A program made the translations under genes and the position numbers. From the NCBI GenBank assembly GCA_026387665.1, contig JAPLLG010000011.1, forward strand, positions 7,501 through 43,395: 35,895 bases of DNA. The letters are read 5' to 3'. This DNA is from Nitrospirota bacterium (lineage in GTDB: Bacteria > Nitrospirota > Nitrospiria > Nitrospirales > Nitrospiraceae). Positions 24,013 through 30,856 of this stretch are shown here, piece by piece; position 1 is the first letter of the stretch; every line of letters begins with the position of its first letter. The notes under the pieces were generated by a model, which did no database searches, was not told where the DNA came from, and saw nothing but the letters and a program-made list of their open reading frames with translations.

Positions 24013-25503
24013 ATGAAACCAACTGTCGCCGCACACCAACCGCTCAGCCTCACCGGAGAGACCCTCAGTCTCCTGGCCTGGCACATCCCCGATCTCATCG
24101 CCTATCAACACCACGAAGACGAATGGTGGTTCGCCCCCCTCGATGACAACCTGCCCATCGTGCGATTGAATCGCACCGGCCTGGAGATGCTCCAAGCGAT
24201 GAACGGCCACACATCGGTTGCGGCGCTGCTGGAAAAATACGGCACGAGGGTCTGCGGACCGGACGGACAGCCAGGCCAATGGCATTTAGAACATTGGTCC
24301 CTCCCCACCTACTCCCTCTGCTACTACGGCACAGAGCCGCCGGGCGGCCACCGCCACAAGGCCAAGTGGGATCTGCTCCTCCAAGAAATCCGGGAAGGCT
24401 GGTCAGGGCAGGAAGGGTTCGAGGGGGAAGAGCACCTTGAAGACTTTCACCACCACGGACTGACCGACAGCGGCGAAGACGACGAACACTTCGACCTGAT
24501 CGAAACCACCGTCTCGCACCTCTTCCGGGAACCGAACGAAACCCTCAACGGCTTGACCTATGGCCGGCTCCTCATGAAGCAACTGCGAAAGCTGGGCTGG
24601 TTCAGCCCCAAGCCCCGCGTCATCGTGGAAGTGGGCGGAGGGCTCGGCTACCTCGCGCGTGAGTTGGGCAAGGAACTCCTGCCCTTTGAAAAACAGACCA
24701 TCCGGTACATCTCCCTCGACATCACCCAGCCCTTCCTCAAGCTGCAAGTCACCCGCGCCAAGGCCGGAGGCTGGGGCGGCATCGGCACCCGCGCCAACGG
24801 CGAATGGCTGCCCTTCAAAGACAACTCCGTCGACCTCGTCATCGACAACGAGAACATGGCCGACATGACGCCGGTAAAGCTGACCAGGAAAGAGCTCCAA
24901 GAAGGAACAGGCGACACGCCGCAACATCAGGAAGCGCTGGATTGGATCAGGCGCGTGAGACTGCCGCTGGGCCAGGACCTGCCGGAAGACGTGATCTTCA
25001 ACCTCGGCCCCTTTCGCTTCGTCGCAGAGCTCTGGCGGGTCTTGAAGCCAGGAGGCAGGGCCTTCCTCACGGAATTCGGGATCGAGGAAGGCTGGCCTGC
25101 GCCGGTCAAGCTGCCTGGCCATACGGAGTACGAAGTCCAGTACAGCCATCTCCGCCAAGCCGTGCGTTGGCTCGGCTTCCAGGAGCGCTATCTCTCCCTG
25201 CCCCAATTCCTCGCCATCAAGCCGGACACCAAGGTGCTCTGCACCGGCGCGGCCTATACCATTCAGCGGTTCTGCCAGGCCATGCACAAGCCCTTCCCCG
25301 TGCGGGCCTACACAGAGAAAGAACTGCAACAGGCCCTGGGCGACATGCTCCCCAAACTCCACGGCTGCCACTACCACGACGTAGTAGATCCCGCCTGGTT
25401 CGGCCTCATCGACTTCAAAGTCTTGTTATTGGAAAAACCAGGCGGAGCCCCGAAAGCCAGCTTCTCGGAGAACCAAGGCTATCGGTGGTATTCGCAAAAA
25501 TAG
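24013..25503 (+). CDS. PqqD-like domain fused to class I SAM-dependent methyltransferase
   Basis: 496-residue protein. The N-terminal region (about 40-75, LPIVRLNRTGLEMLQAMNGH followed by TSVAALLEKYG) resembles a PqqD-type peptide-binding domain. The C-terminal half is a Rossmann methyltransferase: SAM motif I is VIVEVGGGLGYLARELG (about 205-221), the acidic loop SLDIT is motif II, GEWLPFKDNSVDLVIDNENM holds the motif III/IV equivalents and ELWRVLKPGGRAFLTEFG is the typical post-motif. PqqD domains present peptides to modifying enzymes, so peptide or protein methylation is possible, but no precursor peptide or radical-SAM gene is adjacent. ATG 24013 lacks a ribosome binding site. A diverged copy of its 3' end lies at 26372-26453. 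Confidence 0.78.
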   Translation: MKPTVAAHQPLSLTGETLSLLAWHIPDLIAYQHHEDEWWFAPLDDNLPIVRLNRTGLEMLQAMNGHTSVAALLEKYGTRVCGPDGQPGQWHLEHWSLPTYSLCYYGTEPPGGHRHKAKWDLLLQEIREGWSGQEGFEGEEHLEDFHHHGLTDSGEDDEHFDLIETTVSHLFREPNETLNGLTYGRLLMKQLRKLGWFSPKPRVIVEVGGGLGYLARELGKELLPFEKQTIRYISLDITQPFLKLQVTRAKAGGWGGIGTRANGEWLPFKDNSVDLVIDNENMADMTPVKLTRKELQEGTGDTPQHQEALDWIRRVRLPLGQDLPEDVIFNLGPFRFVAELWRVLKPGGRAFLTEFGIEEGWPAPVKLPGHTEYEVQYSHLRQAVRWLGFQERYLSLPQFLAIKPDTKVLCTGAAYTIQRFCQAMHKPFPVRAYTEKELQQALGDMLPKLHGCHYHDVVDPAWFGLIDFKVLLLEKPGGAPKASFSENQGYRWYSQK

Positions 25504-25561: not shown

Positions 25562-26095
25562 TTACCCGCGAAGATTCAGTTTAGCCTTCCATCCCTCGAC
25601 ATAGCTCCAGTCCACCTGGAGCTCAGCCTGGCGAGCCCGGATTTTTTCGAGATCCGCTTGATCTTGCAGGCGACCGGCCAGAGTCTTCAGTACAATCAAA
25701 TCCTCTATCGCCAGAATCGGCACATCAAGTTCGCCGAAGACAATCATCCGCCGACGAGAGAGCGCCGTCTTAAGATAATCCGAGTCCGCCAACAGAATAT
25801 CGACGACCACATCTTGGCCGCCGCGAATGCCCACCGCGCGCCAGATTGAGATTCCCTGAAACACCATGGGGGCAGAATGGATCACGGTCGAATCGAACTG
25901 GGATGCGAGCAGGGATTCGATGCCTTCACGGGTGGGCTGCTCGATGAGCATGAGCAAATCGATGTCCGTCGTGGCGCGTGGTTCAACGAGCGCACTGTAG
26001 GCCCATCCCCCGGCTAACGCATAGTGAAGGCCACGTCGATTGAACTCAGTAATGAGGGTGGAAAGCGCCTGAACTAGGAAGGACTCTGCTGCCAT
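25562..26095 (-). CDS. Nucleotidyltransferase-fold protein
   Basis: 177-residue protein of the polymerase-beta-like nucleotidyltransferase superfamily. The signature GGWAYSALVEPRATTDIDLLM contains the GG(x)nDxD active-site pattern (TDIDLLM). PILAIEDLIVLKTLAGRLQD is the helix that follows in the DUF6036/AbiEii-like subgroup. VVVDILLADSD supplies a third acidic strand. Proteins of this type include toxins that modify tRNA or proteins (MenA/AbiEii, MNT) and antibiotic nucleotidyltransferases. The start overlaps the upstream small gene by 22 bp. Together with that partner it could form a toxin-antitoxin-like pair. It lies in an accessory zone flanked by gene-end duplications. Confidence 0.8.
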   Translation of the reverse strand: MAAESFLVQALSTLITEFNRRGLHYALAGGWAYSALVEPRATTDIDLLMLIEQPTREGIESLLASQFDSTVIHSAPMVFQGISIWRAVGIRGGQDVVVDILLADSDYLKTALSRRRMIVFGELDVPILAIEDLIVLKTLAGRLQDQADLEKIRARQAELQVDWSYVEGWKAKLNLRG

Positions 26096-26271
26096 GCCTG
26101 CTCTTTCGCGCGCCGGATCTCGCGCATGACCTGTGCCATGGCATCGCCAACGAGGGTGCCTTGCTGCACCACCGATTGGCGCAAAGCCAAGCCAAGCTCG
26201 GTGAGTTCGATGGTGCGGCGCAAATTATCGGCGATCCGCGCATCTTCGACATTGTCGTCTGATCGTCGCAT
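26074..26271 (-). CDS. Small partner protein of the nucleotidyltransferase
   Basis: 65-residue helical protein beginning MRRSDDNVEDARIADNLRRT and continuing ELTELGLALRQSVVQQGTLV. It overlaps the nucleotidyltransferase start by 22 bp, implying translational coupling. Size and position are those of an antitoxin or regulator, but it is not a HEPN protein and I do not recognise a DNA-binding motif. I chose ATG 26271 because residues upstream of it (YTLLRLLLRGCC) look non-coding. Confidence 0.62.
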   Translation of the reverse strand: MRRSDDNVEDARIADNLRRTIELTELGLALRQSVVQQGTLVGDAMAQVMREIRRAKEQAWQQSPS

Positions 26272-26371
26272 TGGACAGCAGCCTCGCAACAGTAATCTGA
26301 GCAAAGTGTACAAGACTCATTCAGCCGGAGCAACCTCCGGCTGACTTTAGGTGACGTACCCTTCCCTCTCC

Positions 26372-26453
26372 ACGGTGGTCTCCCCAGCCTGGTTCGGCCT
26401 CATCGACTTCAAAGTCCTGTTATTGGGAAAACCAGGAGGAGCCCCGAAAGCAT
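26372..26453 (+). pseudogene. Diverged 3'-end fragment of the methyltransferase gene
   Basis: Bases 26387-26451 match 25393-25457 of the intact methyltransferase gene at 62 of 65 positions without gaps (offset 994). The frame encodes PAWFGLIDFKVLLLGKPGG followed by APKA. Upstream, about five more codons align with mostly synonymous differences (GTG GTC against GTA GTA, CCA against CCC). Nothing else of the gene is present. The fragment runs directly into the nested element H-C and has the same orientation as the full gene, 0.9 kb further downstream. Confidence 0.85.
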
Positions 26454-26463
26454 GGGAGAAGCA

Positions 26464-26655
26464 GGGCAACCAGACTGCCCTTTGTGCTCGCGCAACGCGC
26501 GGCCTAAGAAGGGGGAAACGGGGCAGCCTGACCGTCCTCCTGCTCGCGGAACGCGCACGATGAGGCTGTGCTCGTTCGACGCGCGCATTCGAGGATCGAC
26601 CAGGCCACCCCTTGAAGGGAGAAGGAAGCGCACAGAGGGGAATCAACCAGGCCCT
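26464..26655. repeat. Nested hairpin-core element H-C
   Basis: The outer element has arm AGGGCAACCAGACTGCCCTT on the left and a partly complementary right arm ending AATCAACCAGGCCCT. Its left core half, with CAACG, is intact; its right core half is degraded to a short AAGCGCA remnant. Inside sits a complete element with arms 26520-26540 and about 26590-26610 and core 26541-26587. Its stem is GAACG/CGTTC and its apical hairpin GCAC-loop-GTGC. It lies between the methyltransferase fragment and the DUF2971 gene. Confidence 0.72.
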
Positions 26656-26798
26656 CACCGCTTGGCCCGTCCCGCGTATCTCGCACGTCTCGCGTCAAAG
26701 AAACTATGCGCACAGTGACGGACAGTCTGGTCGTCCTGCTGAGAGAGTAGAGGGAGAGCACGGAAAGGAATCCTCCGATCGGAAGACGAGATGTACGA

Positions 26799-26818
26799 TT
26801 GCAAGACCTGACCCCTAA
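26799..26818. repeat. REP-like half-site (GACCTGACCCC motif)
   Basis: Contains TTGCAAGACCTGACCCC, a motif I associate from experience with sequences next to REP-associated Y1 transposases (RAYT). No transposase gene is present in the window. Apart from this motif the stretch 26656-26998 contains nothing I can identify. Confidence 0.35.
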
Positions 26819-26998
26819 ATACCGCATTCGATTCGGCGCTTTCACCCCAAGAGGTTAACGCACCTTGAATGTTTGCTCATGAGTTATTGCTGTGCATTAC
26901 TTGAATTGGCACGTGATGATCGCCTCCTTTCCGGGAAAGCATTGCTGGCTGGATGGAAGCCGTGAAATACTATCAATTCTCTCTCCAGCTCAAAGTAT

Positions 26999-27970
26999 CT
27001 ACTTGCCACGAAATGGGATATCTGAGACCAATACTTCTGCGTCGATGCCGTGGTTGCGCAGTAGAATTTCCACGGCTTTTTTTCGTTGCTGCTTTTCGGG
27101 GTGAGGCCCTACAATGACGCGTCGGATTGGCAAGACATTCAATTTCTGATCCTCAAAGAGGTGAATGCAGGGTACAAGCTCACCGTCGCGAAAGTAGCTG
27201 TACGCTCTACGATAAGACTTCCCGCTTTGATTCGAGGGGTCGAGGCCAAATTCTGATGAAGGTTCGCTGACTACTATTCGGACCTCCTTTTCTTCCTCAA
27301 AACCTCTGTGTTTGCAAAAAGCTGAAAGTAGCTCGATGCTCTCGAACGCAGGGTAGGATTTTTCGATATCCCCAGTTGCCCAGTAGTCATTAGCCGCCTT
27401 TCTCACGCATTCAAAATGCTCCAGGACTTGCTCATCCTGAACGCGAGAAAAATCCTCCATATGATACTGGACATCGCCCCAGGCCCACCCCTCCTCGCAA
27501 TACATTTCGCGTTCTGTATTGAGAAGCCCTGCCAGCCCTTTGGCATCAAAAACAATGGCATAGCCCCCATCTAGCCCGTATCCACGCCACTGGCTCAACA
27601 GACCATTTAGGGATATCCATTCGTCCTTGGTTGTGGAGAAAGACGTGAGGTAGTGGTCTTGTGCCGTGTCTTGCGCCTTTTTGAATCCCTCAACGATCTT
27701 TTTCAACCAATGGTCGAATAGATCTACTCCTAAATGATCTGCGGCCTGAACACGCGCGGAAAGATCTTCAGACTCCGCGACATACCTTTTGAATTCCGGC
27801 CTCAGGATCATAGGGAGTATGCGCTGGGAAAAACCGACACCTTCCTCCTTATCATTAAGGAAATGGATGTGGCTGGCCCAAAGGGCCTTGCTACTAGCTA
27901 TGCCATGTAATCCGGCTGCAGTTGTGTAGTGAACCACCTCTTCGTGGTCTGCATAAAATTTCTTGCTCAT
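26999..27970 (-). CDS. DUF2971 family protein
   Basis: 323-residue soluble protein of the DUF2971 family. Family features visible: HYTTAAGLHGIASSKALWAS followed by HIHFLNDKEE near the N-terminus, LTSFSTTKDEWISLNGLLSQ followed by WRGYGLDGGYAIVFDA in the centre, and FCKHRGFEEEKEVRIVVSEP plus VIVGPHPEKQQRKKAVEILL at the C-terminus. The biochemical function is unknown; such genes are often found in accessory regions. The start is ATG 27970; a GTG at 27982 is an alternative, and neither has a clear ribosome binding site. The gene is enclosed by the methyltransferase 3' fragment and the ppx 3' fragment, so it is probably imported. Confidence 0.85.
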   Translation of the reverse strand: MSKKFYADHEEVVHYTTAAGLHGIASSKALWASHIHFLNDKEEGVGFSQRILPMILRPEFKRYVAESEDLSARVQAADHLGVDLFDHWLKKIVEGFKKAQDTAQDHYLTSFSTTKDEWISLNGLLSQWRGYGLDGGYAIVFDAKGLAGLLNTEREMYCEEGWAWGDVQYHMEDFSRVQDEQVLEHFECVRKAANDYWATGDIEKSYPAFESIELLSAFCKHRGFEEEKEVRIVVSEPSSEFGLDPSNQSGKSYRRAYSYFRDGELVPCIHLFEDQKLNVLPIRRVIVGPHPEKQQRKKAVEILLRNHGIDAEVLVSDIPFRGK

Positions 27971-28058
27971 AGAGATATTCACTCAAGATAGGGTGCGGGG
28001 CCAAATCTTGGACTAATAATAATTGATACTGCTTGTCCCTCTCAGACCCTAGCACTCA

Positions 28059-28180
28059 TTACGTCCGCATCTCCAGATCGATCAGCACTCCTTCGCGCAG
28101 CCCTAGATCACTGACTAGCACCGACGACATCCCCAACGTCTCCATGATCGTCCGGATGATGATGGCTCCGGCTGCTAGCC
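28059..28180 (-). pseudogene. Diverged 3'-end fragment of ppx/gppA
   Basis: About 40 codons homologous to the 3' end of the intact ppx gene at 29370 (offset 1314, no gaps). It encodes LAAGAIIIRTIMETLGMSSV followed by LVSDLGLREGVLIDLEMRT and a TAA stop at 28059-28061. The open frame is maintained, and most base differences from the intact copy are synonymous or conservative (CTA GGG for CTG GGT; GAT CTG for GAT TTA). It therefore looks like the end of a second, evolved ppx allele rather than a recent duplication or random decay. It has the same orientation as the intact gene and lies downstream of it, with the deaminase gene between. Confidence 0.85.
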
Positions 28181-28191
28181 TTCTTCAAGGC

Positions 28192-28218
28192 GAATTAAGG
28201 GGGCTGACCCCTTAATTC
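28192..28218. terminator. Perfect 11-bp hairpin after the deaminase gene
   Basis: GAATTAAGGGG and CCCCTTAATTC pair perfectly around GCTGA. The hairpin is 16 nt downstream of the deaminase stop on the minus strand and could terminate its transcript. The GGGGTCAG part on the minus strand also recalls REP-type palindromes. Confidence 0.55.
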
Positions 28219-28233
28219 AGCTCACTTCTGGTG

Positions 28234-29292
28234 TCAACGCGTGGCTGCTGCCTCACGGAACATGGCATCGAGCTGGTCGATCCAGTGCCGCTTGCGCGCT
28301 TCGTCCGCGAAGCTCGCCTCGAAGCTGTTGCGCGCCAGCTGGTAGGCGTGGCGAGCGCCGAGAACCGGCAGCGCGGCAAAGAGTTCGATGAAGTTGGCAT
28401 TGATGGAACCCCCGAAGTACGCCGGGTCGTCACTGTTGATGGTGGCACACAGACCTGCGTCCAGCAGCGCCGGCAGGCTGTGCTCGGCTAGCGTGTTGAA
28501 GACCCGTAACTTTACGTTCGACAACGGACAGACGGTGAGCGGCACGCGTTCGCGCGCGAGACGCGCGACGAGCGCCGGGTCTTCGAGGCAGCGCACGCCA
28601 TGGTCGATGCGCTCAACGTGGAGCACATCCAAGGCACTGTGAATATAGGCGGGCGGCCCCTCCTCGCCCGCATGCGCTACCACATGCAGGCCCAGCTCTC
28701 GGCAGCGAGCGAACACTCGCGCGAACTTCTCCGGCGGGTGACCTCGTTCGCTGCTGTCCAGCCCCACGCCGATGAAATGCTGCCGATACGGCAGCGCCTG
28801 CTCCAGCGTGGCGAATGCCGCATCCTCGCTCAGGTGGCGCAAAAAACACAGGATCAGCGATGAACTAATACCGAAATCGGCCTGCGCACGGCGCATCGCC
28901 TGCTCCAGCCCGGCGATCACCGTTCCAAACGGCACGCCCCGGTTGGTGTGGACCTGCGGGTCGAAGAACACTTCGGCATGCACCACGTTTTCGGCCGCGG
29001 CCCGCTCTAGATACGCGAACGCGAGATCGAAGAAATCCTGCTCGGTGCGCAGCACACTGGCGCCCACGTAATAGAGGTCGAGAAAGCTCTGCAGGTCGGT
29101 GAATGCGTAAGCGCGGCGCAACGCCTCCACGCTCGGGTAGGCCAGCGTCAGGCCGTTGCGCTTCGCCAGGTGGAAGATCAGCTCCGGCTCCAGCGAGCCC
29201 TCGATGTGGATGTGCAGCTCGGCCTTGGGCATGCGCCTCAGCAGCGCAGGCAAGGCAGACCTGGGGATCGTGTCGAACGTAGCGGCATCCAT
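28234..29292 (-). CDS. Adenine deaminase (adenosine deaminase family, type 2)
   Basis: 352-residue member of the adenosine/AMP deaminase family. Metal-site motifs are present: [18 protein letters not shown] with His27 and His29, the catalytic VVAHAGEEG, the RIDHGVRC histidine and [10 protein letters not shown] with the zinc-binding aspartate. [16 protein letters not shown] and VCPLSNVKL are typical of the branch that deaminates adenine to hypoxanthine in Pseudomonas and yeast (Aah1-like), so adenine is my preferred substrate; adenosine is the alternative. It would feed purine salvage. Codon use appears richer in GCG/CGC than neighbouring genes. It sits alone between the intact ppx gene and a diverged ppx 3' fragment, which points to horizontal arrival. 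Confidence 0.9.
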
Positions 29293-29369: not shown

Positions 29370-30317
29370 TTATCGTGTCCGGATTGCTAAATCTAAGAGC
29401 ACTCCTTCGCGCAGACCCAGATCGCTGACCAACACTTCCGACATCCCTAACGTCTCCATGATGGTCCGGATGATGATCGCGCCCGCGGCTATGACTTCTT
29501 CGCGGCCTTTTTCTAGGCCTGGCAAGCCGGCTCGGTCGGCTTTCTTGCGGTTCAAGAGCGTCTGTTCGAGTTCTTGAATCGTGCTGAGCTGCAACTGATA
29601 GTTGTGGATTCTGGCTGGCTCGTAGGTGGGAAGTTTCTGAGCCATGGCTGCCAGGCTGGTGATGGTTCCCGCTGTGCCAACGAATGTGGCGGCTTGATAG
29701 CCACCCATGCCGATGACTGCTGCCGTCGTTTCTCTTACCACCCACGCTCGCGCCTGTTGCACTTCATCGGCAGTCGGAGGGTCGTGGTGCAACATCCTCT
29801 CGCGGAGACGCACGACCCCGATATCGATCGAGCGCACAACCAGCTTCTGGCCTGGCCTGTCTAAGATAAACTCTGTGCTGCCTCCGCCGATGTCGAGAGC
29901 CAGGACGTCGGTCACGCCATCGGGCAAGCCGGAGCGAATACCCAGCAATGTCCGTCTCGCTTCTTCATCGCCTGAGATCAGCTCGACCTCGAAGCCTGCT
30001 TCGCGCTTCACGCGATCGAGAAACTCATCGCGGTTCCCTGCATCACGCACGGCGCTCGTGGCGACAGCCGAGACCCTATCGACCTGCGCCTCATCAATCA
30101 GCCCCCGCCACTCTTTCAAGCACTGGATCACCCGATCCATCGCCGCCACGCTCAACCGTTTGCTCTGATCGACACCTTCGCCCAGCCGGAGGATTCGTCG
30201 CTCAGATCGCACTTCTGTCAGCTTCCCCTCAGGCGGCAAATCGGCAATCAGCAAGCGGCAGGTGAGGGTGCCGATATCTACACCGGCGAGACGCAGCCTG
30301 CGTGACGAGTCCTTCAT
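29370..30317 (-). CDS. Ppx/GppA family phosphatase
   Basis: 315-residue exopolyphosphatase/guanosine pentaphosphate phosphatase family protein of the short form, comprising only the actin-like ASKHA core. Motifs: LAGVDIGTLTCRLLIADL (phosphate loop 1), SAVATSAVRDAGNRDEF, ISGDEEARRTLLGI, LALDIGGGSTEFIL (phosphate loop 2) and the C-terminal GAIIIRTIMETLGMSEVLVS followed by DLGLREGVLLDLA. It should hydrolyse polyphosphate or pppGpp; which one cannot be read. The HD-like C-terminal domain of E. coli Ppx is absent, as in many bacterial homologues. ATG 30317 overlaps the stop of the coiled-coil gene (ATGA), so they are co-translated. Confidence 0.92.
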   Translation of the reverse strand: MKDSSRRLRLAGVDIGTLTCRLLIADLPPEGKLTEVRSERRILRLGEGVDQSKRLSVAAMDRVIQCLKEWRGLIDEAQVDRVSAVATSAVRDAGNRDEFLDRVKREAGFEVELISGDEEARRTLLGIRSGLPDGVTDVLALDIGGGSTEFILDRPGQKLVVRSIDIGVVRLRERMLHHDPPTADEVQQARAWVVRETTAAVIGMGGYQAATFVGTAGTITSLAAMAQKLPTYEPARIHNYQLQLSTIQELEQTLLNRKKADRAGLPGLEKGREEVIAAGAIIIRTIMETLGMSEVLVSDLGLREGVLLDLAIRTR

Positions 30318-30674: not shown

Positions 30675-30856
30675 GGAGGGGGATGCGTGAACTAGCGTCT
30701 CCATTGCTGAAAGAGCGGGGCCCCACCGAGAGTCGACCGAAAGGGAAAGCGGAAACTGACCGAGTCTTCGAGGGAATTTCCGAAGGCTTCCCTTCGGTCG
30801 ACTCCGGAAGGGTCGCTCTGAGAAGCAGGGAGACGCTAGTCCGCGCATCCCCCTCC
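30675..30856. repeat. P2 long hairpin element
   Basis: The outer arms of 28 nt (30675-30702 and 30829-30856) are complementary at 26 of 28 positions. The next inner segments also pair (AGAGTCGACCGAA with TTCGGTCGACT), leaving an apex of about 35 nt that itself contains GGAAA/TTTCC. The whole 182 bp can fold as one hairpin. Its right end shares one base with the stop codon of recG, so it lies immediately downstream of that gene. Confidence 0.8.

Follow-up and report, generated by a model that had tools for sequence, protein, structure and literature searches.

The interval between two conserved, convergent genes of Nitrospira and its relatives, a methyltransferase-like gene (MT) and an exopolyphosphatase-like gene (ppx), appears from sequence comparison to gain and lose genes in an integron-like manner, with no integrase found there. 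We consider it reasonably probable that insertions have been stacked one upon another in this interval as a hotspot, with additive (Campbell-type) homologous recombination at copies of the gene ends as the route by which the insertions would have entered.

The window, by which we mean the whole stretch of 35,895 nucleotides that was analyzed, belongs to a genome of 2.64 Mb (G000 in our numbering of genomes). Its junction comprises the following features, for which MT positions are counted back from the last base of its stop codon.

24013–25503, plus strand: MT, SAM-dependent methyltransferase-like gene, 496 aa, intact; the segment found copied is its 3' end (Pfam Methyltransf_11, E = 1.2e-8)
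25562–26095, minus strand: gene 1 of the NT cassette, encoding a 177-aa nucleotidyltransferase-like protein (cluster C3, 10 cassettes)
26074–26313, minus strand: gene 2 of the NT cassette, 79 aa, putative partner of the 177-aa gene (cluster C0, 17 cassettes)
26364–26383, plus strand: short sequence preceding the MT copy, tentatively shared with G022 and G002, where different cassettes end in it (alignment, by eye)
26384–26451, plus strand: MT 3'-end copy, 94% identical over 68 nt to 25390–25457 (MT -114 to -47)
about 26464–26628, no strand assigned: H-C, a dispersed repeat that directly follows the MT copy (sequence matches)
26999–27982, minus strand: DUF2971 gene (Pfam)
28059–28191, minus strand: ppx 3'-end copy (profile match 28064–28191, ppx -143 to -15, E = 4.5e-30)
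28191–28219, no strand assigned: near-palindrome GAATTAAGGGGGCTGACCCCTTAATTC, bordering the deaminase insertion on its inner side; G025 and G030b have a similar sequence
28234–29292, minus strand: adenosine deaminase gene, the outer ppx-side insertion (NCBIfam NF006850 above cut-off; Pfam); also in G025 and G030b
29370–30317, minus strand: ppx, exopolyphosphatase-like, 315 aa, intact, the second host gene (Pfam Ppx-GppA, E = 2.1e-68)

The preliminary description of this stretch had an intact MT and an intact ppx pointing toward each other, with a diverged 3' end of each gene between them, and all four elements were confirmed at the positions given above. The ppx copy spans approximately 125 nt at 81% identity (ungapped, 28063–28177 against 29377–29491) and retains its own stop codon at 28059–28061. 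Pfam upheld the DUF2971, adenosine deaminase, and Ppx/GppA identities that had been proposed, while the "nucleotidyltransferase pair" stood in part: a homologue of the 177-aa protein weakly resembles DUF6036/DUF2204 nucleotidyltransferases, below the curated cut-off, but neither the 177-aa nor the 79-aa protein has a significant family match of its own, the latter having none at all in protein-family searches, and the pair matched no known toxin or antitoxin family. In G031, a pair member is 87% identical to the 177-aa protein in amino acid sequence. The H-C repeat has dozens of further matches across the G000 genome. In view of the likeness of 26364–26383 to other cassette ends, the NT cassette may have taken the place of another one that earlier carried the MT copy at 26384–26451. 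When 27 long ORFs of the window were scanned by their 3', middle, and 5' pieces, no local copies were found other than those of the MT and ppx 3' ends. An inverted repeat at 30675–30856, with 43-nt arms that are 79% complementary and 96 nt between them, sits between a 107-aa gene and recG.

MT was matched in 30 of 32 genomes of the genus, in 157 of 175 genomes of the family, and in 20 of its 22 genera, and about 80 MT-ppx junction loci of the family were retrieved, many of them from metagenome assemblies. With both genes on a single contig, the interval ranges from nearly empty (85 nt in G053, 110 nt in G148) to more than 9 kb, and its cargo differs greatly between genomes. Whole-gene profiles of MT (1491 nt) and ppx, run at full sensitivity on 280 kb of interval, returned 73 MT matches, all on the MT strand, of which 72 are extra pieces reaching the 3' end; the sole other match, in G091 (-348 to -251), stems from an intact gene that a gap interrupts. 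Gene-end copies of this kind are rarer on the ppx side, with 12 matches, every one of them a 3' end on the ppx strand; the one in G002 is a probable contig split. No body or 5' piece of either gene was found in these 280 kb. Some MT pieces are longer than most, reaching -226, -327, or -410. The longest stack holds five MT copies (G152), and three occur in one interval in G119, G120, and G160. Among named genome records, MT pieces were found in 30 of 79 loci (including L199 and L241, in which MT is cut by the contig start), a set in which many genomes are among those already surveyed and which is not an independent sample.

Three observations concern individual assemblies. In G002 (C2:303214–303330, L052) and at L082, a ppx piece is 100% identical to a ppx that a contig end truncates, with runs of N coming next; the piece in G002 is probably a scaffolding split rather than a relic. 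The metagenome assembly of N. lenta, G030, has two approximately 94% identical junctions on separate contigs (L041 and L042), with and without the deaminase layer, which probably represent two strains in one assembly. In G001 (L060) and G029 (L061), both of 1.7–1.8 Mb, MT directly adjoins recG and the 107-aa gene that otherwise follows ppx, and no match to a ppx of the junction type was found in either genome.

The copies delimit a modular arrangement in which MT is followed by a cassette, an MT 3' end, a further cassette, and a further MT 3' end. Each cassette, mostly of two small toxin-antitoxin-like genes, is followed by a copy of the last 60–150 bases of the host gene. We grouped cassettes by their encoded proteins, as grouping by DNA similarity merged nearly all of them via shared repeats, and the types comprise the NT pair of the window, HigBA, RelE/Gp49-like plus HTH, MNT plus HepT-like HEPN, VapBC, a second PIN pair, and some larger ones. 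The domains detected are of toxin-antitoxin type (HigB, HTH, Gp49, PIN, HepT-like, and nucleotidyltransferase), with the phd family below cut-off. At the left edge, type-specific sequence begins immediately behind the stop codon, whether that of MT or that of a copy, and at the right edge each type joins the next copy at its own position, about -70 for NT and MNT/HEPN, -90 for C20, -120 for RelE, and -131 for Hig. This type specificity of the right joints is significant (mean deviation of 4.9 nt versus 21.0 nt when permuted, n = 56, p ≤ 5e-5, with types assigned by hand and copies related by descent, such that copy counts do not equal independent events). Genomes differ by whole cassettes, with the order NT-RelE-Hig in G119 and G120, NT-Hig in G156, and RelE-Hig in G093.

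The copies also bear marks of exchange. One exact right junction, at which MT position -47 is followed by H-C, stands on copies with four different left joints, in G000, in G024, twice in G011, and in G022p. Because four left joints share one right junction on copies that are missing the last 47 nt, exchange would have occurred upstream of -47, unless the same deletion recurred. On the NT side of G156, a hybrid copy starts like the NT copies of G119 and G120 and continues like the copies that precede Hig cassettes. Mismatches between copies and host MT number 124, 105, and 302 at the first, second, and third codon positions, respectively, giving a third-position share of 57%, compared with 71% among intact MTs and 33% expected under free decay. 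Given this excess at third positions, the copies appear to derive for the most part from genes that were functional in other lineages, where much of their divergence would have arisen. A reading of the copies as plain relics of the host's own gene was set aside, their similarity being just slightly higher to the host MT (0.838) than to other MTs of the genus (0.810), as was a fixed crossover site, because the joints vary by cassette type and copies without the last 47 nt have still exchanged.

Mosaic copies and shuffled joints, which would fit homologous recombination, were seen at the junction in the comparison of genomes, and the sharing of the -47 junction, the G156 hybrid, and the codon-position pattern together favor homologous recombination at gene-end copies. 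A cassette would be born when a rare, illegitimate first joint links foreign DNA to a short stretch from the 3' end of the host gene. A circle or fragment carrying the MT 3' end and the cassette could then undergo a RecA-type homologous crossover at an MT 3' end, as an insertion-duplication, which would leave MT intact with the incoming end, the cassette inside, and the old 3' end pushed inward. Crossovers between copies would remove or reorder cassettes, and toxin-antitoxin addiction may help to retain them. ComEC was found in 10 of 10 genomes, which fits DNA uptake, yet it is present in most bacteria. A counterpoint to the proposal is that the shared homology is short, at 60–150 nt, and 75–98% identical.

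The sharp left edge raises the alternative that a recombinase acting in trans recognizes the MT 3' end (at a site within its last ~30 nt) and mobilizes any cassette with a copy of it, much as an integron integrase does with attC, which we regard as unlikely. Cassettes do begin exactly at the stop codon, and codons 484–495 of MT (about 25462–25497 in the window; GGCTATCGGTGGTATTCGCAG) show the strongest synonymous-codon constraint of the gene; both features would also suit a site recognized by a protein. However, the constraint is ambiguous in this respect, since that in the last ~12 codons is present in genomes with and without detected copies. A candidate enzyme of about 720 aa, PF10136, named "site-specific recombinase", is encoded in 6 of 24 genomes (G028, G085, G086, which we take to be N. 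moscoviensis, G122, G123, and G154), in all six directly downstream of MT, but the other 18 are without it, including the array-bearing, single-contig G147, and it is absent from most arrays. Other than PF10136 in some, no recombinase was found among the scanned cassette proteins, and none lies inside the junction among the matches listed for single-contig genomes, serine recombinases being outside both searches. The integron integrase (TIGR02249) exceeded its cut-off in just 1 of 21 genomes, and the remaining matches are weaker tyrosine recombinases, those listed for single-contig genomes lying away from the junction. That one genome, G152, which has the longest array of MT copies, encodes a clear integron integrase (464 bits) at C9:1591–2526, on a contig other than that of the array. 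Recognition of the terminal bases is further at odds with the exchange of left joints in copies that are missing the last 47 nt, with the hybrid copy of G156, which switches upstream of about -52 (one case), and with the recurrence of the signature, described below, at the bioB, WD40, and Crp/Fnr genes without any shared sequence.

If, instead, each cassette had come into a lineage just once, by homology-facilitated illegitimate recombination during DNA uptake, the copies would be inert scars. The presence of such copies at genes that are unrelated, with cargo likewise unrelated, and the independent behavior of MT and ppx are in keeping with such entries, but scars leave unexplained why different species and genera have type-specific joints in common, combined with different right-hand continuations, and we judge this account to be quite improbable. 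That the copies are decayed full-length tandem duplicates of MT or ppx, or artefacts of assembly, either of which the preliminary description had named as grounds for abandoning its reading, seems scarcely credible: the occasional longer pieces, the G002 ppx piece, and the many metagenome assemblies could be cited for it, but the 280 kb of interval hold zero 5' or body pieces, and copies of MT or ppx are present in the single-contig genomes G123, G147, and G084. Homologous recombination at gene-end copies is the reading that we prefer.

Applied to the window, additive insertion would make the NT cassette on the MT side and the deaminase gene on the ppx side the outer insertions, and the block between them an older junction. 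The relatives bear out the layered structure that had been proposed, in that a layer native to one genome recurs as a relic elsewhere. The inner ppx piece of G026, together with its 3' flank, matches the intact ppx end and flank of the window (also G025), and in both G005x and G022 the inner MT piece runs into the flank that follows the intact MT in G011. The deaminase layer is common to the window, G025, and G030b, and its joint to the inner ppx piece is identical in the window and G025; the outer ppx of deaminase carriers ends in GVLLDLAIRTR, and the inner piece of the window in GVLIDLEMRT. The inner block is therefore most simply read as an older local junction that would have been left between later insertions. 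The preliminary description had taken it for a single methyltransferase/ppx junction of a related genome, inserted as a unit, and had proposed a search for relatives in which it is native. Pieces of it are indeed native elsewhere, a relative of the DUF2971 protein (58% amino acid identity) being encoded directly downstream of the intact ppx in G010, but this DUF2971-ppx half is all that was found, and no genome has the whole block. Furthermore, MT copies occur without ppx copies and ppx copies without MT copies, and the stacking of up to five MT copies on one side shows that layers build up independently on the two sides. Given the native and relic layers among relatives, a foreign junction brought in en bloc is not needed. 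An ordering of outer copies as younger than inner ones was not adopted, the trend by eye being weak.

The same signature is found at other genes, for which the preliminary description had proposed to look. In stretches totalling 1.2 Mb that were sampled from G147 and G000 (882 ORFs), bioB of G000 (C7:159318–161110, L151–L152) is followed by a Phd/YefM-like antitoxin gene, whose Pfam match is just below cut-off, and then by 102 nt that repeat the 3' end of bioB at 90% identity. Behind a WD40-repeat gene of G147 (C1:3078463–3080575, L136) lie an antisense HEPN/MNT pair and a 3'-end copy (79% over 150 nt), and behind a Crp/Fnr-type regulator gene of the same genome (C1:327222–334858, L180) lie 6.8 kb of cargo, consisting of metabolic genes (radical SAM and oxidoreductase-like), and a 3'-end copy (91% over 79 nt). 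Middle-of-gene and 5' controls in this sample gave some hits too, mainly in one tandem-repeat region.

Some integrative elements restore the 3' end of their target protein gene. The likeness to these that had been pointed out for the window holds, as does the absence of an integrase from the junction, where none was seen: the host gene is intact with the incoming 3' end, and the old, displaced end lies beyond the insert. Unlike such elements, the inserts at the MT junction have joints that vary by cassette type and stand several in series. In common with integron arrays and integrase-less attC clusters, they are small cassettes, often toxin-antitoxin, that are separated by repeats and gained or lost whole, and each of these modular cassettes has a recombination-site-like repeat. 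That repeat, however, is a coding gene-end copy, 70–98% identical to the MT end, which would set it apart from attC; assignment to integrons was rejected for want of the integrase, which is missing in 20 of the 21 genomes and is off the array contig in the other. By definition, minimal mobile elements, known from Neisseria, are different whole-gene cassettes that occupy the space between two conserved genes strain by strain and are incorporated by homologous recombination (PMC3082526). MT and ppx likewise enclose different whole-gene cargo in different genomes, but, set against that definition, MT-ppx cassettes stack rather than replace one another, and each has a copy of the 3' end of the flanking gene. 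Homology-facilitated illegitimate recombination, which combines one homologous and one illegitimate joint (PMC3240628), would account for the joints with which each cassette first arose, but alone leaves the reuse of joints and the shuffling of whole cassettes unexplained. The MT-junction arrays work like an integron array and like a minimal mobile element, yet they fall short of the former in the integrase and exceed the latter in their stacked gene-end copies. In searches of open-licence papers, we found no earlier description of such arrays.

Taken at its broadest, and here we are doubtful, the system could be an integron-like one without an integron, in which the 3' end of a housekeeping gene serves as docking site, toxin-antitoxin-like cassettes carry copies of it, RecA or a recombinase in trans (perhaps PF10136) moves them, and bioB and other genes are used alike. 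The arrays offer a concrete route by which genes could accumulate at a chromosomal hotspot without an on-site integrase, each copied 3' end becoming the next landing pad. They also provide a simple search that can be applied to any genome, namely for copies of the 3' end of the upstream gene behind accessory genes. Such a route could account for variable islands that have no integrase, and for how toxin-antitoxin pairs have spread among genera.
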